Positions 26,161 to 38,395 of a stretch of 64,000 bases of DNA are shown piece by piece. The notes beneath the pieces are model-generated. The model saw nothing but the letters and a program-made list of their open reading frames with translations, did not search any database and had not been told where the DNA came from. Numbering within the stretch: the first letter of the stretch is position 1; the number at the start of each line of letters is the position of its first letter. The DNA is from Gemmatimonadota bacterium (lineage in GTDB: Bacteria; Gemmatimonadota; Gemmatimonadetes; Gemmatimonadales; GWC2-71-9). Location: NCBI GenBank assembly GCA_003221035.1, contig QHUB01000011.1:36376-100375 (forward strand). The letters run 5' to 3'. Made by a program: the position numbers and the translations under genes.

Positions 26161-26406
26161 ATGGCCGCTACCGAATACGGCAAGCACATGGGAGAGCTCA
26201 AGCGTGGGGAGCAGCGCTGGGACGTCTTTCTCGAGGGTCAGCCCGACAGTTCCATGGGTGCGGTGCGGGGCCGTATTCACTTTGTGAGTGGTCAGCAGCA
26301 CAAGGTTACAGGTTGGATCTTCCTGGAATGGAAGGAAAAAGATATTCACGAGCGGTTTGGTGAGTTTTCGGCGGTCGAGCTGTTGCACTTTGTGGAGTCG
26401 CTGTAA
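26161..26406 (+). CDS. Small hypothetical protein
   Basis: Unrecognised 81-residue product with mixed alpha/beta character (EQRWDVFLEGQPD, AVRGRIHFVSGQQHKVTGWIFLEW, SAVELLHFVESL). There is no signal peptide. TAGTGT (26148-26153) ends 7 bp before the ATG, so initiation may be leaderless, but no matching -35 is visible. It lies upstream of the glutamine synthetase promoter and is transcribed separately. Confidence 0.62.
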   Translation: MAATEYGKHMGELKRGEQRWDVFLEGQPDSSMGAVRGRIHFVSGQQHKVTGWIFLEWKEKDIHERFGEFSAVELLHFVESL

Positions 26407-26475
26407 CGCAACTGTAGCACAAATGGGCGTACAGTTTGCACATTTCCACATCACAAATCGTACGTCAGCCTCCAT

Positions 26476-26496
26476 TTCGTGCAATTCGTGCACGGA
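26476..26496. promoter_or_regulatory. Nitrogen-block operator upstream of glnA
   Basis: TTCGTGCA-ATTCG-TGCACGG is a near-perfect inverted repeat with core CGTGCA-N5-TGCACG at 26478-26494, ending 7 bp before the -35. The same core with N5 occurs twice upstream of amtB. Its position, centred near -50, suits an activator, but repression cannot be excluded. Confidence 0.68.
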
Positions 26497-26500
26497 TTTC

Positions 26501-26529
26501 TTGACACCAGATAGCAGGCACTCTAGCTT
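26501..26529 (+). promoter_or_regulatory. glnA promoter, TTGACA-N17-TAGCTT
   Basis: A perfect -35 (26501-26506) and TAGCTT -10 (26524-26529) with 17-bp spacing give a predicted start at about 26536 and a 52-nt leader with GAAGGAG before ATG 26588. Confidence 0.72.
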
Positions 26530-26587
26530 CCCGTATGGCCCGCCGCTTGCAAAGCGCGTCACCGACTCGGGAAGGAGACCCCTCGCA

Positions 26588-28057
26588 ATGACAGCAACCT
26601 TGGAACCCACCGCCACCACGGCCGGGAAAGCGTCCACTGGCCCATCGCCGGCAGATGTGATCCGCCGTGCCAAGGAGGCGGGCGTGCAGGTCGTGGACGT
26701 ACGATTCACGGACCTGCCGGGCACCTGGCAGCATTTCTCGATTCCGCTCAAGGAGCTCGAGGAAGAGACGTTTACCGAGGGCCTGGGATTCGACGGCTCG
26801 TCGATCCGCGGCTTTCAGGCGATCAACGAAAGCGACATGCTGCTGCTCCCCGATCCCGGGAGCGCCTTCGTCGATCCGTGTCTCGAGGTGCCGACGCTCT
26901 CGCTCACCTGTGATATCGTCGATCCGATCACGCGCGAGCCGTACTCGCGCGACCCTCGCTACGTGGCGCGTAAGGCCGAAGCGTTCTTGAAGAAGAGCGG
27001 CGTAGCCACGACTGCGTACTTCGGGCCCGAGGCGGAGTTCTACATCTTCAACTCCGTGCGCTTCGACCAGAACGCGCACGAGGGCTACTATCACATCGAT
27101 TCCGAAGAAGGCATCTGGAACAGCGGCACCAACGGCACGCCCAACCTGGGCCACCGTCCGCGGCACAAGGAAGGGTACTTCCCGTGCCCGCCGACCGACC
27201 GGCTGCAGGATCTTCGCTCCAAGATCATGCTCGCGATGATCGCCGCCGGCATCGAGGTCGAAGTCCACCATCACGAAGTCGGAACGGCGGGCCAGACCGA
27301 AATCGACATGCGCTATAACACACTGACGCGCATGGCCGATCAGGTCATGATGTACAAGTACATCGTCAAGAATGTCTGCTGCAAGAACGGCTACACGGCG
27401 ACGTTCATGCCCAAGCCGATGTTCGGCGACAACGGCTCTGGCATGCACGTGCACATGAGCCTGTGGAACGGGTCGAGCAACCTGTTCTTCGACAAGAACG
27501 GGTATGCGCTGATTTCCGATTCGGCGCGCTGGTATATCGGTGGGTTGATCAAGCACGCGGCCGCACTGCTCGCATTCGCGGCGCCGACGACGAACAGTTA
27601 TCGCCGCCTGGTCCCGGGCTATGAAGCGCCGATCAACCTGATCTACTCGCAGCGCAACCGCTCGGCGATCTGCCGCATCCCGATGTACTCGACGTCGCCG
27701 AAGGCCAAGCGGCTCGAGTTCCGAGCGCCCGATCCCTCGGCGAATCCGTACCTCACGTTCGCCGCGCTGCTCATGGCAGGTCTCGACGGCATCAAGAACA
27801 AGATCGAGCCGCCGAAGCCGATGGACGTGGACCTCTACGAGCTGGAGCCCGAAGAGCGCAAGCACGTCAAGAACACGCCGGGCAGCCTGCAGGAATCGTT
27901 GGCGGCGCTGGAAGCCGACCACGCATTCCTGGTCGAAGGCGGCGTCTTCACGCAAGACCTGATCGATACCTGGCTGGCGATGAAGAAGCTCAAGGATGTC
28001 GACGCGGTGGCACTCAGGCCGCATCCGTACGAGTACTTCCTGTATTACGACGCCTGA
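26588..28057 (+). CDS. glnA: Glutamine synthetase type I, with adenylylation-type Tyr
   Basis: ATP-dependent synthesis of glutamine from glutamate and ammonium. The 489-residue protein has the beta-grasp domain (DVRFTDLPGTWQHFSIPLKEL, then GLGFDGSSIRGF) and the metal/ATP blocks FGPEAEFYIF, EVHHHEVGTAGQTEID, KPMFGDNGSGMHVHMS. NRSAICRIP and RLEFRAPDPSANPYL follow. DLYELEPEE near residue 415 matches the NLYDLPPEE adenylylation loop of GSI-beta enzymes, so Tyr modification is possible. GAAGGAG precedes ATG 26588. It is followed by a second, different glnA. Confidence 0.96.
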   Translation: MTATLEPTATTAGKASTGPSPADVIRRAKEAGVQVVDVRFTDLPGTWQHFSIPLKELEEETFTEGLGFDGSSIRGFQAINESDMLLLPDPGSAFVDPCLEVPTLSLTCDIVDPITREPYSRDPRYVARKAEAFLKKSGVATTAYFGPEAEFYIFNSVRFDQNAHEGYYHIDSEEGIWNSGTNGTPNLGHRPRHKEGYFPCPPTDRLQDLRSKIMLAMIAAGIEVEVHHHEVGTAGQTEIDMRYNTLTRMADQVMMYKYIVKNVCCKNGYTATFMPKPMFGDNGSGMHVHMSLWNGSSNLFFDKNGYALISDSARWYIGGLIKHAAALLAFAAPTTNSYRRLVPGYEAPINLIYSQRNRSAICRIPMYSTSPKAKRLEFRAPDPSANPYLTFAALLMAGLDGIKNKIEPPKPMDVDLYELEPEERKHVKNTPGSLQESLAALEADHAFLVEGGVFTQDLIDTWLAMKKLKDVDAVALRPHPYEYFLYYDA

Positions 28058-28063
28058 CAACTA

Positions 28064-28123
28064 GGGCGGCAACAGGCGGCATCGGGGCGGTAATGGTGAC
28101 TCCGTTGCCGCCTTTTGCCGCCC
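28064..28123 (+). repeat. Strong hairpin between the two glnA genes
   Basis: The left arm (28064-28082, GGGCGGCAA-C-AGGCGGCA) pairs with the right arm (28105-28123) with 17 of 19 positions matched, around a 22-nt loop. No T-run follows, so it is more likely an RNA processing or stabilising element, or a partial attenuator, than a terminator. It lies in the 84-bp gap before glnA copy 2. Confidence 0.62.
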
Positions 28124-28141
28124 GTTGCCGCCACTCCGCCC

Positions 28142-29467
28142 ATGCCAACAAAGCGTGAAATCTTAGAGGCAGCAAAGAAGCAAGACGTGAGCTCGCTCAG
28201 GCTGCAGTTTACGGACATCCTGGGCGTGAACAAGAATGTCGAGGTGCCGCAGAGCCAGTTCGACAAGGCGCTCGAGGGCGACATCATGTTCGACGGCTCG
28301 TCGATCGAGGGGTTCGTACGGATCGAGGAATCGGACATGGTGCTGCGGCCCGACCTGGAGACGTTTCGCGTGCTGCCCGACGGGGACGCGGCCGGCAAGG
28401 TCGCCCGGGTGATCTGCGACATCTACAACCCGGATGGCTCGGCGTTCGCCGGCTGCACGCGTCAGGCGTTGCAGCGCCAGATCGCGAAGGCCAAAGCGTT
28501 GGGCTTCGAGATGATGGCCGGCGTCGAGGCCGAGTTCTTCATCTTTCAATTGGACTCGGACGGTGAGCCGACCACGGTGACGCACGATCACGGCGGCTAC
28601 TTCGACCAGACGCCGGTCGATCGCGCCGAGGAGATTCGCCGGCTGATCGTGAAGGATCTCGTGGCGATGGGCTTTGAGGTCGAAGCAGGGCATCACGAGG
28701 TCGCCCCGGGACAACACGAGATCGACTTTCGCTACGCCGAAGCGCTGGCGACGGCCGACAATCTGGCGACGTTTCGTTTTATCGTGCGGAACGTGGCCTA
28801 TCGGCACGGATTTCTCGCGACGTTCATGCCCAAGCCGATCTTCGGCCAGAACGGCTCGGGGATGCACACCCACCAGTCGCTGTTCCGGAAGGGGACGAAC
28901 GCGTTCCACGATCCCAAGGCGAAGTGGGAGCTCTCTCCGGTAGCGCTGAACTATATCGCGGGGCTGCTCAAGCACGCCCGCGGCTTCTGCGCCGTGACGA
29001 ATCCGCTGGTGAACAGCTACAAGCGGCTGGTGCCGGGTTACGAGGCCCCCACCAATGTGGCGTGGTCGATGCGGAACCGGTCCCCGCTCGTGCGCATCCC
29101 CGACCGCCGCGGTATCGGCACCCGCTGCGAGCTGCGCATGCCCGATCCATCAGCGAACCCCTATCTCGCGCTTGCGGTGCAGCTTGCAGCGGGGCTCGAC
29201 GGGGTGCAGAAGAAGCTGACCCCGCCCGACCCCGTGAATAAGAACATCTTCGAAATGAGCTTTCGCGAGCGCCGGAAGTACCGTATCGACGAGCTGCCGC
29301 GCGACCTTCACGAGGCGCTCGACATGCTCGAGAAGGACGACATCATCAGGGAGGCGCTCGGCACGCACATCTACGAGCGGTTCGTCGAAGCCAAGCGTGA
29401 GGAATGGCAAGAATACATCGGCCGCGTGAGCGAATGGGAGGTGGAGCGCTACCTGACCCAGTACTGA
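28142..29467 (+). CDS. glnA: Glutamine synthetase type I, second paralogue (GSI-alpha-like)
   Basis: The 441-residue protein is shorter than its neighbour. It has the N-terminal TDILGVNKNVEVP and FDGSSIEGF, EAEFFIF, GHHEVAPGQHEIDFRY, KPIFGQNGSGMHTHQS, PGYEAPTNVAWS, and RCELRMPDPSANPYL. At the adenylylation-loop position it has NIFEMSFRERRK, with Phe instead of Tyr, so it should not be regulated by adenylylation. This agrees with GSI-alpha enzymes, which are usually feedback regulated. Start MPTKREILEAAK at 28142. The last third was also the source of the remnant at 32330-32679. Confidence 0.96.
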   Translation: MPTKREILEAAKKQDVSSLRLQFTDILGVNKNVEVPQSQFDKALEGDIMFDGSSIEGFVRIEESDMVLRPDLETFRVLPDGDAAGKVARVICDIYNPDGSAFAGCTRQALQRQIAKAKALGFEMMAGVEAEFFIFQLDSDGEPTTVTHDHGGYFDQTPVDRAEEIRRLIVKDLVAMGFEVEAGHHEVAPGQHEIDFRYAEALATADNLATFRFIVRNVAYRHGFLATFMPKPIFGQNGSGMHTHQSLFRKGTNAFHDPKAKWELSPVALNYIAGLLKHARGFCAVTNPLVNSYKRLVPGYEAPTNVAWSMRNRSPLVRIPDRRGIGTRCELRMPDPSANPYLALAVQLAAGLDGVQKKLTPPDPVNKNIFEMSFRERRKYRIDELPRDLHEALDMLEKDDIIREALGTHIYERFVEAKREEWQEYIGRVSEWEVERYLTQY

Positions 29468-29518
29468 ACGTCGCCCCCGTTCCGCTTCCCCCCCCGTACG
29501 TCCCGTCTCATCCTCTGC

Positions 29519-29534
29519 TGGCACACTGTATGCA
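29519..29534 (+). promoter_or_regulatory. Possible sigma-54 promoter upstream of amtB
   Basis: TGGCAC-N5-ATGCA matches the -24/-12 consensus (TGGCAC-N5-TTGCA) with one mismatch. The GG (29520-29521) to GC (29532-29533) spacing is exactly 12. The start would be near 29545, within the first operator. Confidence 0.45.
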
Positions 29535-29536
29535 GG

Positions 29537-29557
29537 TTCGTGCATTTGATGCACGAC
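29537..29557. promoter_or_regulatory. Nitrogen-block operator 1 of amtB
   Basis: TTCGTGCA-TTTGA-TGCACGAC, core CGTGCA-N5-TGCACG perfect. A degenerate site with an intact left half (TTCGTGCA, 29567-29574) follows 30 bp downstream. Confidence 0.7.
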
Positions 29558-29610
29558 TTACTATCGTTCGTGCACAGCACTGTGGGCGATAGTTGCAGAG
29601 TGTACGCAGA

Positions 29611-29631
29611 TTCGTGCATATTATGCACGAA
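29611..29631. promoter_or_regulatory. Nitrogen-block operator 2 of amtB
   Basis: TTCGTGCA-TATTA-TGCACGAA is a perfect 21-bp inverted repeat. Its centre contains TATTAT and CATATT. With TTGCAG (29593-29598) a -10 here would be overlapped by the operator, so binding could block a vegetative promoter. Confidence 0.75.
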
Positions 29632-29662
29632 TCCACTGACACAACGAACCGTCGAGGGGGAC

Positions 29663-31093
29663 ATGGACGCCAACACCGTTGCCATCAACTTCGTCTGGAC
29701 GCTAGTCGCCGGTTTCCTCGTGATGTTCATGCAAGCCGGCTTCGCGCTGGTCGAGACCGGCTTCACGCGCGCGAAGAACGCCGCGCACACCATGACGATG
29801 AACTTCATGGTATACGGCATCGCGATGTTGGCCTACTGGGCCGTGGGCTTCGCCCTGCAGGCGGGTGGCGTCGGGCCGCTCGGGACGCTGGGCGGCTACG
29901 ATCAGTTGTCGCACGAGGTGTCGGTGACGATCGGCGGGAAGTCGTGGGGTCTGTTCGGAGGAACGGGGTTCTTTCTGACCGGCGTCGCGTACACCGCGCC
30001 GGTCTTCGCCTACTTCCTGTTCCAGATGGTCTTCATGGACACCGCCGCGACAATCCCGACCGGCGCGCTGGCCGAGCGGTGGAAGTTTTCCGCGTTCGCC
30101 GTGTTCAGCGTGTTCGTCGGCGCAGTCATTTATCCGATCTACGCTAACTGGACCTGGGGCGGCGGGTGGCTCGCGATGCTCGGCAAGAACCTCGGGCTGG
30201 GCCACGGCCACGTCGACTTCGCCGGATCGTCCGTCGTCCACATGACGGGCGGAGTCATGGCGTTCGTCACCGCGATCCTCCTCGGCCCGCGGCGTGGCAA
30301 GTATAACCGCGATGGGACCGCGAATGCGCTCCCGGGCCACAACATCCCGATGGCGTTGGTCGGCACGTTCATCCTCGCTTTCGGGTGGTTCGGATTCAAC
30401 GCCGGATCGACACTCGCGGGCTCTGACCTGCGCATCGCCGTCATCGCGACGAACACGATGCTCGCTGGGGCGGCTGGAGGGCTGACGGCGATGCTGTACG
30501 TGTGGCGCAAGTACGGCAAACCCGATCCGTCGATGCTCGCGAACGGGACACTCGCCGGACTGGTCGCGATCACCGCGCCGTGCGCCTTCGTGACGGCCCC
30601 ATCCGCCGTTTTGATCGGGGGCGTGGCGGGGGTCCTGGTCTGCGCCGCGGTGGTCTTCGTCGAGCGGTCGCTGAAGATCGACGACCCCGTCGGAGCCATC
30701 TCGGTCCATGGAGTGTGCGGGTTGTGGGGGGTTCTCGCCGTGGGGCTGCTCGCCGACGGCACCTATGGCGCCGGCTGGAATGGAGTCGACGGCGCGGTGC
30801 GTGGACTGTTCTATGGCGACCCGTTGCAACTTCTCGCGCAGCTGGTGGGCGGCGTGACCAATTTCGTCGCCGTCGGCGCGATGGCGTACGGGGCGTACAA
30901 GATCACCGGTCTCGTGGTGGGGGGCCATCGCGTCTCGGCTGAGGTCGAGGAGCTCGGGCTCGATGTGCCGGAGATGGGCGTGGAGGCGTATCCCAGTACG
31001 CCGGAGGCGTCGACCATCATCGTCATGAACGAGTCGACGGAAACGTCACTCGAGCCCGAGGCGCCGCTCGAGGCACAGCCGGAGCCGGTCTGA
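29663..31093 (+). CDS. amtB: Ammonium transporter (AmtB)
   Basis: Inner-membrane ammonium channel of 476 residues with about 11 hydrophobic helices. Pore features are visible: the first helix AGFLVMFMQAGFALVETGF, the twin-His residues in GSSVVHMTGGVM and SVHGVCGLWG, and FAFGWFGFNAGST-type sequence (LAFGWFGFNAGSTL). The acidic C-terminal tail (about 40 residues) is long. GAGGGGG precedes ATG 29663; longer in-frame starts would fall inside the operator region. No glnK is adjacent; the next gene, overlapping by 1 bp, is a porin. Confidence 0.96.
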   Translation: MDANTVAINFVWTLVAGFLVMFMQAGFALVETGFTRAKNAAHTMTMNFMVYGIAMLAYWAVGFALQAGGVGPLGTLGGYDQLSHEVSVTIGGKSWGLFGGTGFFLTGVAYTAPVFAYFLFQMVFMDTAATIPTGALAERWKFSAFAVFSVFVGAVIYPIYANWTWGGGWLAMLGKNLGLGHGHVDFAGSSVVHMTGGVMAFVTAILLGPRRGKYNRDGTANALPGHNIPMALVGTFILAFGWFGFNAGSTLAGSDLRIAVIATNTMLAGAAGGLTAMLYVWRKYGKPDPSMLANGTLAGLVAITAPCAFVTAPSAVLIGGVAGVLVCAAVVFVERSLKIDDPVGAISVHGVCGLWGVLAVGLLADGTYGAGWNGVDGAVRGLFYGDPLQLLAQLVGGVTNFVAVGAMAYGAYKITGLVVGGHRVSAEVEELGLDVPEMGVEAYPSTPEASTIIVMNESTETSLEPEAPLEAQPEPV

Positions 31094-32187
31094 TGCGTGC
31101 CCTCGCGGTGGCCGGCCTGTTGCTCGCACCGGCGTCACTGGCGGCGCAAACGCCTGCACCGCTCACGCTCACCGGCTGGGCCGAGGTGTCCTACGCCTAT
31201 TCCCGGCACAGCGTCGGCGATACGATGATCGTGGGCCGGCTGTACGATCGTCTGCAGAACCGCTTCACCCTGAACGCGCTCGGCGTCGTGCTGGACAAGT
31301 CGTACGACCCCGCGAAGCGTAGCGCCGGATTCCACGCCGAGGTGCTGTTCGGCCAGGATGCCACTGTGATCAAGTCCAGTGGGGGGGCGCTCGACCTCGG
31401 CACGCAGGGCGATATCCCGCACCTCTACGTCACCCTGAACCTCCCGACCGCGAGTGGGAGCGGCGTGCAATTCAAGGCGGGGCGCATCCCCACACTGCTC
31501 GGGCTGGAGGTGATCGAGACCACCGCCAACCCGAACTGGTCGGAGGGAAACCAGTTCATCTACGTCGAGAACTTCACTGCGGTTGGTTTGAGCGTCGAAA
31601 CAAAGCTCAACCGCTACATCGACGTGCAGCTGCGTGTGATCAACGGGTGGGATCAGGTCTCCGACAACAACAAACGGAAGTCGCTGATGGGACGTATCGG
31701 GATCTCTCCCGATACGCTCACCGCGGTAGGCATCACCGGGTTCTGGGGCCCGGAAGAGGCCGGCAACGACAACGCGAATCGCTATGGTGTGGAGGCCCTG
31801 CTGTCGCGGAGGCTGGGCAGCGCGCAACTCTGGCTACAGGGTGACTACGGCCGCGAGCAGGCGAACGCCGCCTTGCCGACCCCCACGCAGGATGCCGAAT
31901 GGTGGGCAATCGGCGGCTGGGTGTCCTACGCCGTCAACACGTCGGTCGGGTTAGCGCTGCGGGGGGACTATGTGAACGATGCGAACGGCGCGCGTACCAG
32001 CGGGTCGATGGGCTTTCCCGGGAACGGGGGTCACAAGTTTGGCAGCGCCACGGCGACGCTGAACATCCGTGCGTGGCCGAACGCCGTTGTCCGGCCGGAG
32101 GTGCGGTACGATCGATCCACCCTGGCAGCCTTCAACGGCAAGACGGATCAGGCGAGCGTCGCGCTAAGCTTGGCGTACTTGTACTGA
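31093..32187 (+). CDS. Outer-membrane beta-barrel porin (porin-2/OmpL-like)
   Basis: The 364-residue protein has a signal peptide cleaved after SLAAQ, then alternating amphipathic strands with aromatic girdles (LTLTGWAEVSYAYSRH, FHAEVLFGQD, VQFKAGRIPTLLGLEVIE, LWLQGDYGRE). It ends with ASVALSLAYLY, a terminal aromatic typical of BAM substrates. The ATG overlaps the amtB stop (TGATG), so it is co-translated with amtB and probably lets ammonium or small nitrogen compounds cross the outer membrane. Confidence 0.85.
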   Translation: MRALAVAGLLLAPASLAAQTPAPLTLTGWAEVSYAYSRHSVGDTMIVGRLYDRLQNRFTLNALGVVLDKSYDPAKRSAGFHAEVLFGQDATVIKSSGGALDLGTQGDIPHLYVTLNLPTASGSGVQFKAGRIPTLLGLEVIETTANPNWSEGNQFIYVENFTAVGLSVETKLNRYIDVQLRVINGWDQVSDNNKRKSLMGRIGISPDTLTAVGITGFWGPEEAGNDNANRYGVEALLSRRLGSAQLWLQGDYGREQANAALPTPTQDAEWWAIGGWVSYAVNTSVGLALRGDYVNDANGARTSGSMGFPGNGGHKFGSATATLNIRAWPNAVVRPEVRYDRSTLAAFNGKTDQASVALSLAYLY

Positions 32188-35688: not shown

Positions 35689-37020
35689 TTAGCAACCTAC
35701 TGGCAACGTTAAACGAGCTTCGCAGCCGCGATTTCCGGAGGCTCGGTTGGAAAGCGTCAACGTCCCGCCGTGCGCCTCGGCGATTTGCCGCGAGAGAGCG
35801 AGGCCGATTCCCGAACCGTCAGGCTTCGTCGTATAGAATGGCACGAACAGATTCGCCGTGTCGGCAAGACCGGCGCCCTCGTCGCGGACCCAGATATCGA
35901 GCTGGCCATTCCGCGTTTCCCAGCCGACCTCAACGGCTCCATTCGCTTCGAGCGTCGCATCCACCGCGTTGCGCACGAGGTTGATCAGCAACTGATCTAG
36001 CTGTCCGCCGTCGGCCTGGATCATCACGTTGGGTCCCGGGCTTATCGCCACCGGCCGACGTGTCTCCAGCGCGACCACGCGGCGTACCCAGTCCTGGATC
36101 ATGACATTCTCGAGCCGGGGCGGGGGCAGGCGTGCTAACCGCGCGTACGCGGCCATCAGCCGGCTGAGCGACTCCGAACGGCTGGCGATCACGCCGAGTC
36201 CTTTGCGGAGGTCCTCGCGCTGGTCCGGGGGCGGCGGCTCGCGCGCGATGAGGTCGAGGAGACTGTCGGCAATCGACTTGATGGGCGCCAGCGAATTGTT
36301 GAGCTCGTGGCTGAGTACGCGAATGAGCCGTTTCCACGCTTGGCGCTCTTCGTCGCTCAGCGCACGGCTCACGTCGGTCAGCACCAACAGCTGGTGTGGG
36401 AGGCCGCCCTGCCGGAACGTGCCGCGCCGCACTTCCCAGCGACCAGCTCGGCCGGGAAACGTGAGCGTATCGACGCGCGGCGTCTCGCCCGCGAGAGAGC
36501 TGGCGAGACCGAGACTCGTCGCGTCCCGGCCGAGCAGCTGCTCCGGCGGGCGGCCGAGCAAAGCCGCGCCGCTGCGGTTTACGAGCCGGAGCGCGTGCGC
36601 GGCGTCAAACGCGAAGATGGCGACGTCGATCTCGTCCATCACACGGCGGAGCAGCGCGGTCGCTTCGAGGGCGCCCAGCCGCTGGGCGCGGAGATCGTCG
36701 CCCAGACTATTCAGCTCGAGGAGCAGCAAGCCGAGCGCGTCCTCGGGATTCGAGCCGCGGGCGCGAAGCGTGTAGTCGCGCTCGCGCAGCGCGGCGAGCA
36801 CGTTCGATACGGTCTGGAGTGGCCGTACGACGTGCTCCTTTACGATGGCGGCGCACGCCAGCCAGACGCCGGCGACCAGTATTGTGAGCGTCCATTGTGT
36901 GCGGGCCGTGAAGTCGCCGAACCAGAGGAGGCCCAGCGCGAGCGCGACCGCCGGGAAGCCGCCGACCAGCGCGAGCCAAAAGACGCGCCGCTCGTGACGT
37001 GGAGTGGCCTTAGAGGCCAT
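35689..37020 (-). CDS. Membrane sensor histidine kinase (NtrY/NtrB-like)
   Basis: The 443-residue protein has two N-terminal transmembrane helices (about 12-60), a HAMP-like linker (VSNVLAALRERDYTLRARG), a PAS domain (VDVAIFAFDAAHALRLVNRSGAALLG) and a DHp/CA kinase core. The phospho-acceptor is in VLSHELNNSLAPI, the N box is NLVRNAVDATLE, and the G boxes are DEGAGL and GSGIGLALSR. HELNNSLAPI is typical of NtrY-type kinases. It overlaps the regulator gene by 11 bp. It follows the ABC export operon on the same strand. Confidence 0.94.
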   Translation of the reverse strand: MASKATPRHERRVFWLALVGGFPAVALALGLLWFGDFTARTQWTLTILVAGVWLACAAIVKEHVVRPLQTVSNVLAALRERDYTLRARGSNPEDALGLLLLELNSLGDDLRAQRLGALEATALLRRVMDEIDVAIFAFDAAHALRLVNRSGAALLGRPPEQLLGRDATSLGLASSLAGETPRVDTLTFPGRAGRWEVRRGTFRQGGLPHQLLVLTDVSRALSDEERQAWKRLIRVLSHELNNSLAPIKSIADSLLDLIAREPPPPDQREDLRKGLGVIASRSESLSRLMAAYARLARLPPPRLENVMIQDWVRRVVALETRRPVAISPGPNVMIQADGGQLDQLLINLVRNAVDATLEANGAVEVGWETRNGQLDIWVRDEGAGLADTANLFVPFYTTKPDGSGIGLALSRQIAEAHGGTLTLSNRASGNRGCEARLTLPVGC

Positions 37021-38395
37021 GCCGTTTGAGCCGGCGATACAACGCGCTGCGCGAGAGCCCGAGGGCCTTCGCCGCATCGCTGACGTTGCCCGCGGCGCGT
37101 GTGAGCGCCTTCTGAATCAGTACGCGCTCGACCTCCTCCAGACTCATCTGATCGAGCGCCGCTGCGGCGCCCCCTCCACCGTCCAGCCCAAAGTCACGCG
37201 CGCGAACCATCCCGCCTTCCGCCATCAGGACGCCGCGTTCGACCGCATGGTCCAACTCCCGGACGTTTCCCGGCCACGCGTGGCGCAACAACAGCTCCAT
37301 CGCGTCTGATGCGAATGGTAGGGGCGCAGCATGCTGCGCCCCTACACCACCGACGGGCTTATGGTACCGGGCGCCGTAGCGGTGCAGGAAGTGCGCGGCG
37401 AGCAGCGGGATATCGGCGCGTCGCTCGCGCAATGGGGGGAGCCGGATCTCGACCGTGTTGAGACGAAACAGCAGATCTTCACGGAAGCGACCGGCCTTCA
37501 CCTCCGCCTGGATGTCGGCGTTGGTGGCCGCGACGACGCGCACGTCGGCACGGCGCGCGCGCGACGCGCCCACGCGCTCGTATTCGCCTGTCTCGAGCAC
37601 ACGCAGCAGCTTCGCCTGCTGCGGGAGCGGCAGATTCGCGATCTCGTCGAGGAACAAGGTGCCGCCCTCGGCCAGCTCGAAGCGCCCGATGCGGTCGGTT
37701 TTCGCGTCGGTGAACGCGCCACGCACGTGCCCAAACAGCTCGCTCTCGAACAAGCCGTCGGGGATGCCGCCCAGATTCACGGCGATCATCGGCCGCTCGC
37801 TGCGTGGCGACGACGCGTGCAGCCAGCGCGCGACGACCTCTTTGCCCGTACCGTGCTCACCGAGGACGAGCACGTTCGCGTCCGATGGGCCCACGCGCTC
37901 CATCAGCCGCAACACGGGCTGCATCGCGGGCGATTCGGCGATGAGCTCGGGAAGCCCTTCTCTGCGGATCGTGCGGTTCTCGATCTCGAGACGCTGGCTC
38001 TTGCGCAACGCGCGTCCCAGCTCGACCTGCGTGCGCAGGGTGGCGAGGAGACGCCGGTTGTCCCAGGGCTTCTCGATGAAGTCCCGCGCCCCGCGGCGCA
38101 TTGCTTCGACGGCGCCGTCGATGCTGGCCCAGGCCGTCATCACCACGACGGGGGGCGCGCTCTCCAGCCCCTGGATGCGCGACAGCAGATCCAGCCCTTC
38201 GGCGCCGGAGGTGGTGTCGCGGGCGTAGTTCATGTCGACGAGCAACGCGTCGAAGTCGCGCGCTTCCACGGCGGTCAGGACGCTGCGCGGAGATGTCGCG
38301 GTCTCCACTACGAAACCTTCACCCTTGAGCAGGAGCTTGAGTGCTTCGAGGACGTCAGGCTGATCGTCCGCAATCAGAAGGCGGGGTGCAGACAT
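37010..38395 (-). CDS. NtrC-family response regulator with GAFTDA loop
   Basis: 461 residues: receiver (phospho-Asp54 in [10 protein letters not shown]), AAA+ domain (Walker A GEHGTGKE 179-186, Walker [10 protein letters not shown] 244-252) and Fis-type HTH ([25 protein letters not shown]). The sigma-54 contact loop reads GAFTDA (226-231) instead of GAFTGA, so coupling to sigma-54 may differ. Residues about 351-360 ([10 protein letters not shown]) are encoded by an inserted palindromic repeat, in frame. It pairs with the kinase and probably controls the adjacent ABC locus. A four-helix cassette lies just upstream. Confidence 0.93.
37318..37345. repeat. Perfect 28-bp palindromic repeat inside a coding sequence
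   Basis: The half-site GTAGGGGCGCAGCA is followed directly by its exact complement. It is inserted in frame in the NtrC-like regulator, between the AAA+ core ([12 protein letters not shown]) and [12 protein letters not shown]. Related copies are at 19280-19303 and 12981-13000. Confidence 0.85.

Follow-up and report, generated by a model that had tools for sequence, protein, structure and literature searches.

A paired 41-bp operator at ammonium-assimilation genes of Gemmatimonadetes points to a probable shared nitrogen-responsive regulator

We examined a window of 64,000 nucleotides from a Gemmatimonadota bacterium (GenBank assembly GCA_003221035.1, contig QHUB01000011.1), in which two glutamine synthetase genes, glnA1 and glnA2, precede amtB1, a gene for an ammonium transporter. 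Both glnA1 and amtB1 have a pair of 41-base-pair (bp) palindromic operators upstream, and operators of the same design recur before ammonium-assimilation genes in related genomes. The pattern of sites makes it probable that one nitrogen-responsive DNA-binding protein occupies these tandem operators and switches on sigma70 promoters when nitrogen is short. The source genome of the window (G000) is a 3.36-Mb assembly of 113 contigs, and the window corresponds to C73:36376-100375. Its nearest relatives are metagenome-assembled genomes, nearly all of them labelled Gemmatimonadetes.

An earlier note on this DNA had reported three perfect copies of the core CGTGCA-N5-TGCACG beside the glnA and amtB genes, and a scan at zero mismatches found all three, at 26478-26494, 29539-29555, and 29613-29629. 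The 21-mers that enclose them lie at 26476-26496, 29537-29557, and 29611-29631; both half-sites of the last are perfect, and the other two have one half-site mismatch each. All of G000 contains seven exact cores, compared to four for the reversed control pattern. Three of the seven fall in this 3.1-kb block, and the other four are inside open reading frames (ORFs). When G000 was searched with TTYGTGCAWWWWWTGCRCRAA at up to three mismatches, the three block sites and just one more (L161) were found, and that one is not beside a nitrogen gene; the reversed control gave one forward and two reverse matches. If two mismatches are allowed, the core occurs 15 times in the window, compared to 7.3 expected, and 2 of 100 shuffles reach 15. 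As this excess is only about twofold, the strength of the case rests on the exact cores, their location, and their conservation. The lone half-site that the note placed at 29567 does exist (TTCGTGCA at 29567-29574), but it was not seen in the amtB1 upstream regions of four genus relatives (L036, L037, L038, and L116).

The note described a 21-bp site. That palindrome is real, but the conserved unit is longer, at 41 bp, and it is mostly paired. We aligned sites from relatives along with their flanks, after dropping four near-identical genus relatives, and the logo of the 45 non-redundant sites has the symmetric form TGT-N7-TTCGTGCA-N5-TGCACGAA-N7-ACA. TGCA is nearly invariant at -6 to -3 and at +3 to +6, the centre is A or T, and the outer triplets (TGT at -20 to -18 and ACA at +18 to +20) are exactly symmetric. 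The operator therefore has four half-sites, lying roughly ±5 and ±19 from its middle. The mean match is highest at the outer offsets given, with 2.22 of 3 for TGT and 2.47 of 3 for ACA; the other offsets tried give at most 1.42. At least two of the three TGT bases are present in 13 of 14 distal sites and in 25 of 31 proximal or single sites; for ACA, the corresponding counts are 10 and 31. Exact TGT is found in 4 of the distal and 16 of the proximal or single sites, and exact ACA in 6 and 20.

To score candidate operators, we used a symmetric weight matrix built from aligned sites, with a score of 8 or more counted as a hit. The best position in the window is the proximal amtB operator (29601..29641, inner palindrome 29611-29631, score 50.0), in which none of the 16 fixed positions of the 41-bp pattern is mismatched. 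It is followed by the proximal glnA operator (26466..26506, inner palindrome 26476-26496, score 30.3), which is conserved along with its flank in the genus relatives L036 and L038, and by the distal amtB operator (29527..29567, inner palindrome 29537-29557, score 26.0). The fourth best is a weak distal glnA operator (26393..26433, score 11.9), 73 bp upstream of the other glnA unit, which the earlier note had missed. The next score is 7.1, and the maximum in the reversed window is 6.6. The window thus holds two pairs, 26393/26466 at glnA and 29527/29601 at amtB. Elsewhere in G000 there are two hits at 12.3-12.8, and the reversed control reaches 16.2; because these outscore 11.9, the distal glnA unit is credible mainly by its 73-bp spacing.

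That spacing is highly regular. In 66 loci that were chosen for their target promoters (512 kb), the matrix gave 120 hits with 48 spacings of up to 250 bp, and 47 of the 48 were 72-76 bp, or about seven helical turns; the remaining one was 201 bp. Most of these pairs (38 of 47) contain a site outside the matrix training set. Across 80 other stretches of G000 (1.20 Mb), there were 11 hits and no pairs. At L040-L048, from several other genera, the two amtB1 operators flank a conserved and partly palindromic block resembling ACCCGATTGGGT-N2-TAGCGCAGTGT.

Enrichment in relatives, which the earlier note had suggested as a test, is clear. In 61 genomes of the family, searched at up to two mismatches, the site occurs in 15 places. 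Eleven of these precede amtB1, two precede amtB2 or glnK-amtB2, one precedes an amtB-linked porin gene, and one is inside a kinase ORF. That is, 14 of the 15 are upstream of genes for ammonium transport, PII, or the porin, and the control pattern was found in one place. More broadly, 39 of 394 genomes from the class have a match (49 places), compared to 5 genomes for the control. Thirty of the 49 places precede nitrogen-assimilation genes or the porin, and 1 more (in G322, at a contig edge) precedes nitrogen genes by synteny only; 6 are inside ORFs (L195, L208, L209, L212, L215, and L216), 1 is uncertain (L200), and 11 were uninspected. The targets are amtB1, amtB2, glnK-amtB, glnA1, and the amtB-linked porin, with glnA1 sites in other genera as well (such as L168, L169, L171, L172, L174, L175, and L181). 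In a sister family (f2), the inspected sites are upstream of glnK-amtB, a type III glutamine synthetase, a molybdopterin oxidoreductase, and a transglutaminase gene, names that Pfam confirmed for one or two examples each, and several of these sites are also paired, at 73-74 bp. Read by eye, the molybdopterin oxidoreductase is probably a nitrate reductase.

With the full 41-bp pattern at zero or one mismatch, all 28 places among the matches listed are amtB or glnK promoters. At two mismatches, the pattern gave 126 forward hits in 71 genomes of the window's family (f1), compared to 28 for the control (summed by hand). From the matches listed, we hand-picked 17 places, mostly AT-rich, for closer inspection. 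These yielded 21 hits, of which 16, in 12 loci, are new and lie before glnK-amtB2 (L358, L359, L360, L361, L366, and L370), amtB2 (L362), glnA1 (L363, L365, L368, and L373), or amtB1 (L364 and L365). The other five are two repeats (L369 and L372), two sites in ORFs (L367 and L371), and one between two genes that have no known link to nitrogen (L374). No site is present upstream in L049-L052, which are from other phyla or distant; the analysed loci do not include L053-L114.

At L218 (G186:C43), an operator pair precedes a transglutaminase-like gene, and the next gene encodes a circularly permuted ATP-grasp protein; the operon may thus be under nitrogen control there. At L200/L235 (G006:C139:13217), a site scoring 23.8 is near what by eye are a cupin gene and an aminomethyltransferase-like gene, and this is a possible further target.

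How the operator meets the promoter bears on its sign. We surveyed 40 hand-chosen promoters, which leave out eight glnA1 promoters with a distal unit only and most amtB1 promoters. In 24 of the 40, from several genera and two families, an exact TTGACA lies at +15 to +20 from the operator centre. These include 13 of 13 glnA1 promoters (at least 5 of them from the window's own genus), 7 of 7 glnK2 promoters, those of the molybdopterin gene, the transglutaminase gene, and the porin, and 1 of 7 amtB2 promoters. For 21 of the 24, a spacer of 17 bp leads to a hexamer that agrees with TATAAT at three or more of its six positions. At glnA1 of the window, the -35 box TTGACA is at 26501..26506 (plus strand), and its ACA is the operator's outer half-site; 17 bp further is a -10-like box, TAGCTT (26524..26529, plus strand), with three of six matches to the consensus. 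The outer ACA is more than a -35 box, as distal units conserve it too, and so do 7 of the 12 proximal units at amtB1. At the TTGACA promoters, the operator centre would be near -51 of the expected start.

At amtB1, the proximal unit is followed by just 21 bases before the ATG; because no usable -10 comes after that unit, the amtB1 promoter must lie upstream of it. At amtB2 of G022, G333, and G208, the best -10 is 11-13 bp further from the operator, about one helical turn. An activator would tolerate such a shift, which therefore suits activation, although weakly, as the -10 was chosen as the best within a 21-bp range. A sigma54-like element, TGGCAC-N7-GC, is present upstream of amtB1 at 29519-29533 and is conserved in four genus relatives; it was not found in G001 or in the amtB1 upstream regions examined from other genera. 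This element and the distal amtB operator overlap, at the operator's upstream outer half-site.

We propose that a tetramer, or two dimers, would fill one 41-bp operator, and that a pair of these units, which lie about 74 bp from each other on one face of the helix, may cooperate by DNA bending or looping. Where the proximal unit is near -51 (glnA, glnK, the nitrate-reductase-like gene, and the porin), it would touch RNA polymerase. The proximal unit of amtB1 is immediately ahead of the start codon, probably in the leader, and would more likely limit transcription. A single regulator presumably binds all of the sites. The earlier note had likewise read its three cores as pointing to one nitrogen regulator; the enrichment at targets in relatives supports this, but the single binder is still an inference. 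More tentatively, and we consider this rather doubtful, the protein may be a master regulator of a new kind: a tetramer that reads four half-sites, with two tetramers seven turns apart and an outer half-site inside the -35 box, and with control over glutamine synthetases I and III, ammonium transporters, PII, the nitrate-reductase-like gene, and the porin.

Several results weigh against activation by one such protein. First, searches of the Lrp/AsnC and IclR families, the latter with 16 of 81 candidates in G000 scored, found no convincing regulator. Second, TTGACA is not exact at 4 type III glutamine synthetase, 2 f2 glnK, 6 of 7 amtB2, and 4 amtB1 promoters in the survey, and none of the 4 amtB1 promoters surveyed has a -10 where the proximal unit would lead one to expect it. 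Third, training of the matrix was manual and used sites that were known to be close to nitrogen genes, 21 of the 66 chosen loci have no pair, and the 41-bp pattern is noisy at two mismatches, when it matches 252 of the 394 class genomes. Also, glnK2-amtB2 of G000 lacks the operator. Finally, a perfect -35 box that is overlapped by an operator suits a repressor too.

That last point leads to the alternative that survives best: in nitrogen excess, a repressor on the same operator would cover the -35 box (at glnA and glnK) or the amtB1 leader and exclude RNA polymerase. Repression fits both the 24 promoters in which the operator and a perfect TTGACA share their final base and the short distance from the amtB1 proximal unit to the ATG, but the one-turn shift at amtB2 of three genomes counts weakly against it. 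We judge repression to be somewhat unlikely, though a serious contender.

We also considered as the binder an NtrC/Fis-type (HTH_8) response regulator whose specificity has changed and which acts at sigma70 promoters. Like the NtrC box, the operator core keeps G(-7), Y(-4), R(+4), and C(+7), which we take to be the Fis rule. A candidate is encoded 6 kb from amtB, at 37010-38395, and reads GAFTDA; sigma54 activators usually read GAFTGA. However, the half-sites are in inverted order relative to NtrC, and the candidate belongs to a histidine kinase/response regulator pair that is followed by genes for MacB-type ABC permeases (35689-38395; named by eye). In L038, the 8 kb after amtB1 contain no match to the pair. 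We consider a binder of this type unlikely.

Among other families, IclR tetramers can read about 42 bp, which suits an operator with four half-sites. G000 has no convincing member: its HTH_IclR matches have E values of 1.5e-5 or weaker, with 16 of 81 candidates scored. Some HTH_IclR match is present in 389 of the 394 genomes, and the strongest among the matches listed are at 1e-10 to 5e-18. A LysR-type binder is possible by geometry, and a CRP-type binder seems unlikely to us, on the presumption that an odd operator centre does not suit it. By eye, MarR-, MqsA-, and MerR-like genes are near some loci. In G143 (L219), an Rrf2 gene (PF02082) lies about 0.8 kb upstream of glnK, with a DJ-1-like gene (by eye) between them; the spaced cysteines of the Rrf2 protein resemble those of nitric oxide sensors, and we treated the location of its gene as a coincidence.

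An Lrp/AsnC-type protein would account for a 5-5-5 palindrome with an AT-rich centre and for wrapped tandem sites. In the accessible part of PMC4046817, the Ss-LrpB consensus, TTGCAAAATTTGCAA, is a 15-bp palindrome that shares TGCA-N5-TGCA, and the protein wraps DNA; the consensus given there has no outer half-sites. PF01037 has a match in 16 of the 19 family f1 genomes that bear an operator match, but not in G000, G039, or G049, even though G000 and G039 have operators with zero mismatches and G049 has one with a single mismatch. With no PF01037 in G000 and the gene lost from its syntenic place (1-2% of G000 is missing), this candidate is largely refuted, and we consider it very improbable. 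At L290 (G000:C41, near 11620), genus relatives have lrp between larE-like and EamA genes; G000 keeps only the last codons, a natural knock-out. Lastly, the palindromes have a negligible chance of acting as RNA hairpins in 5' leaders. An 8-bp stem with a 5-nucleotide loop is possible, and the amtB1 proximal unit is near the start codon. However, the units of glnA, glnK2, and the nitrate-reductase-like gene either overlie the -35 box or precede it, so that transcripts from that promoter would not include them, and the hairpin leaves out the outer TGT and ACA.

The genes of the block are all on the plus strand, in the order 81-amino-acid ORF, glnA1, glnA2, amtB1, and BBP2 porin. Both glutamine synthetases are of type I: glnA1 (26588..28057; 489 amino acids) matches TIGR00653 with 647 bits, and glnA2 (28142..29467; 441 amino acids) matches it with 546 bits. 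They are followed by amtB1 (29663..31093; 476 amino acids; TIGR00836, 371 bits) and a gene for a beta-barrel porin (31093..32187; PF07642 BBP2, 177 bits). A match to the porin is downstream of amtB1 in 13 of the 14 relatives scanned. Some other genera have glnK between amtB1 and the porin (L042, L043, L045, L046, and L047); the window's genus does not. The conserved 81-amino-acid ORF (26161..26406) is directly upstream of glnA1, and its 3' end overlaps the distal glnA operator. Pfam and NCBIfam searches gave no match to it, and it has no clear relative in PDB. We found 17 further distinct sequences in family f1 loci, nearly all of them glnA1 loci, from at least seven genera, and the mean column identity of the 18 aligned sequences is 74%. 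Its product is possibly a partner of glutamine synthetase.

The earlier note had set its motif apart from NtrC and GlnR sites, and this was borne out for the operator. In Bacilli, the MerR-like proteins GlnR and TnrA control glnA, amtB-glnK, and nitrate genes. Their site, as far as our sources give it, is the 17-bp TGTNA-N7-TNACA, whereas the operator here is 41 bp long, has its TGT and ACA 35 bp apart around a TGCA-N5-TGCA core, and is repeated at 72-76 bp. GlnR of Paenibacillus, as described in the accessible part of PMC6191146, both activates and represses nif from two sites, one located before the start and the other 24 bp after it, a two-site design with dual sign that is comparable to the mechanism proposed above. 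Actinomycete GlnR (OmpR type) is likewise global in its control of nitrogen, and its boxes at glnA and amtB are paired, but the box consists of direct repeats of 5-bp a and b sites with a 6-bp gap (gTnAc-n6-GaAAc, in the accessible part of PMC10704036) instead of an inverted operator with four half-sites. The enteric NtrC box resembles the operator in several ways: it is a palindrome with an odd centre, it consists of TGCA-type half-sites, it occurs at glnA and ammonium genes, and the G(-7)/Y(-4)/R(+4)/C(+7) bases are common to both. However, it is TGCACCAnnnTGGTGCA, with the order TGCAC-N7-GTGCA (accessible part of PMC8743547), while our logo of 45 sites has the inverted halves GTGCA-N5-TGCAC, outer TGT and ACA, and a sigma70 promoter at many targets.

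A search of the open-access literature turned up no nitrogen regulator or binding site reported for Gemmatimonadota; the accessible part of PMC3162934, which mentions Gemmatimonas and glnA, has nothing on a nitrogen regulator or its site. Nitrogen regulation by a shared operator is of a known kind, but the architecture and sequence of this operator do not match any of the described systems that we compared.

Overall, Gemmatimonadota are a common soil phylum, and a precise operator with defined targets makes the question of their nitrogen regulator testable. The operator is a ready bait for its protein, and the genes that it marks define a regulon, in which the BBP2 porin is linked to ammonium uptake. 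The four half-sites, the tandem at seven turns, and the half-site merged with the -35 box should also be of interest for understanding transcription activation.

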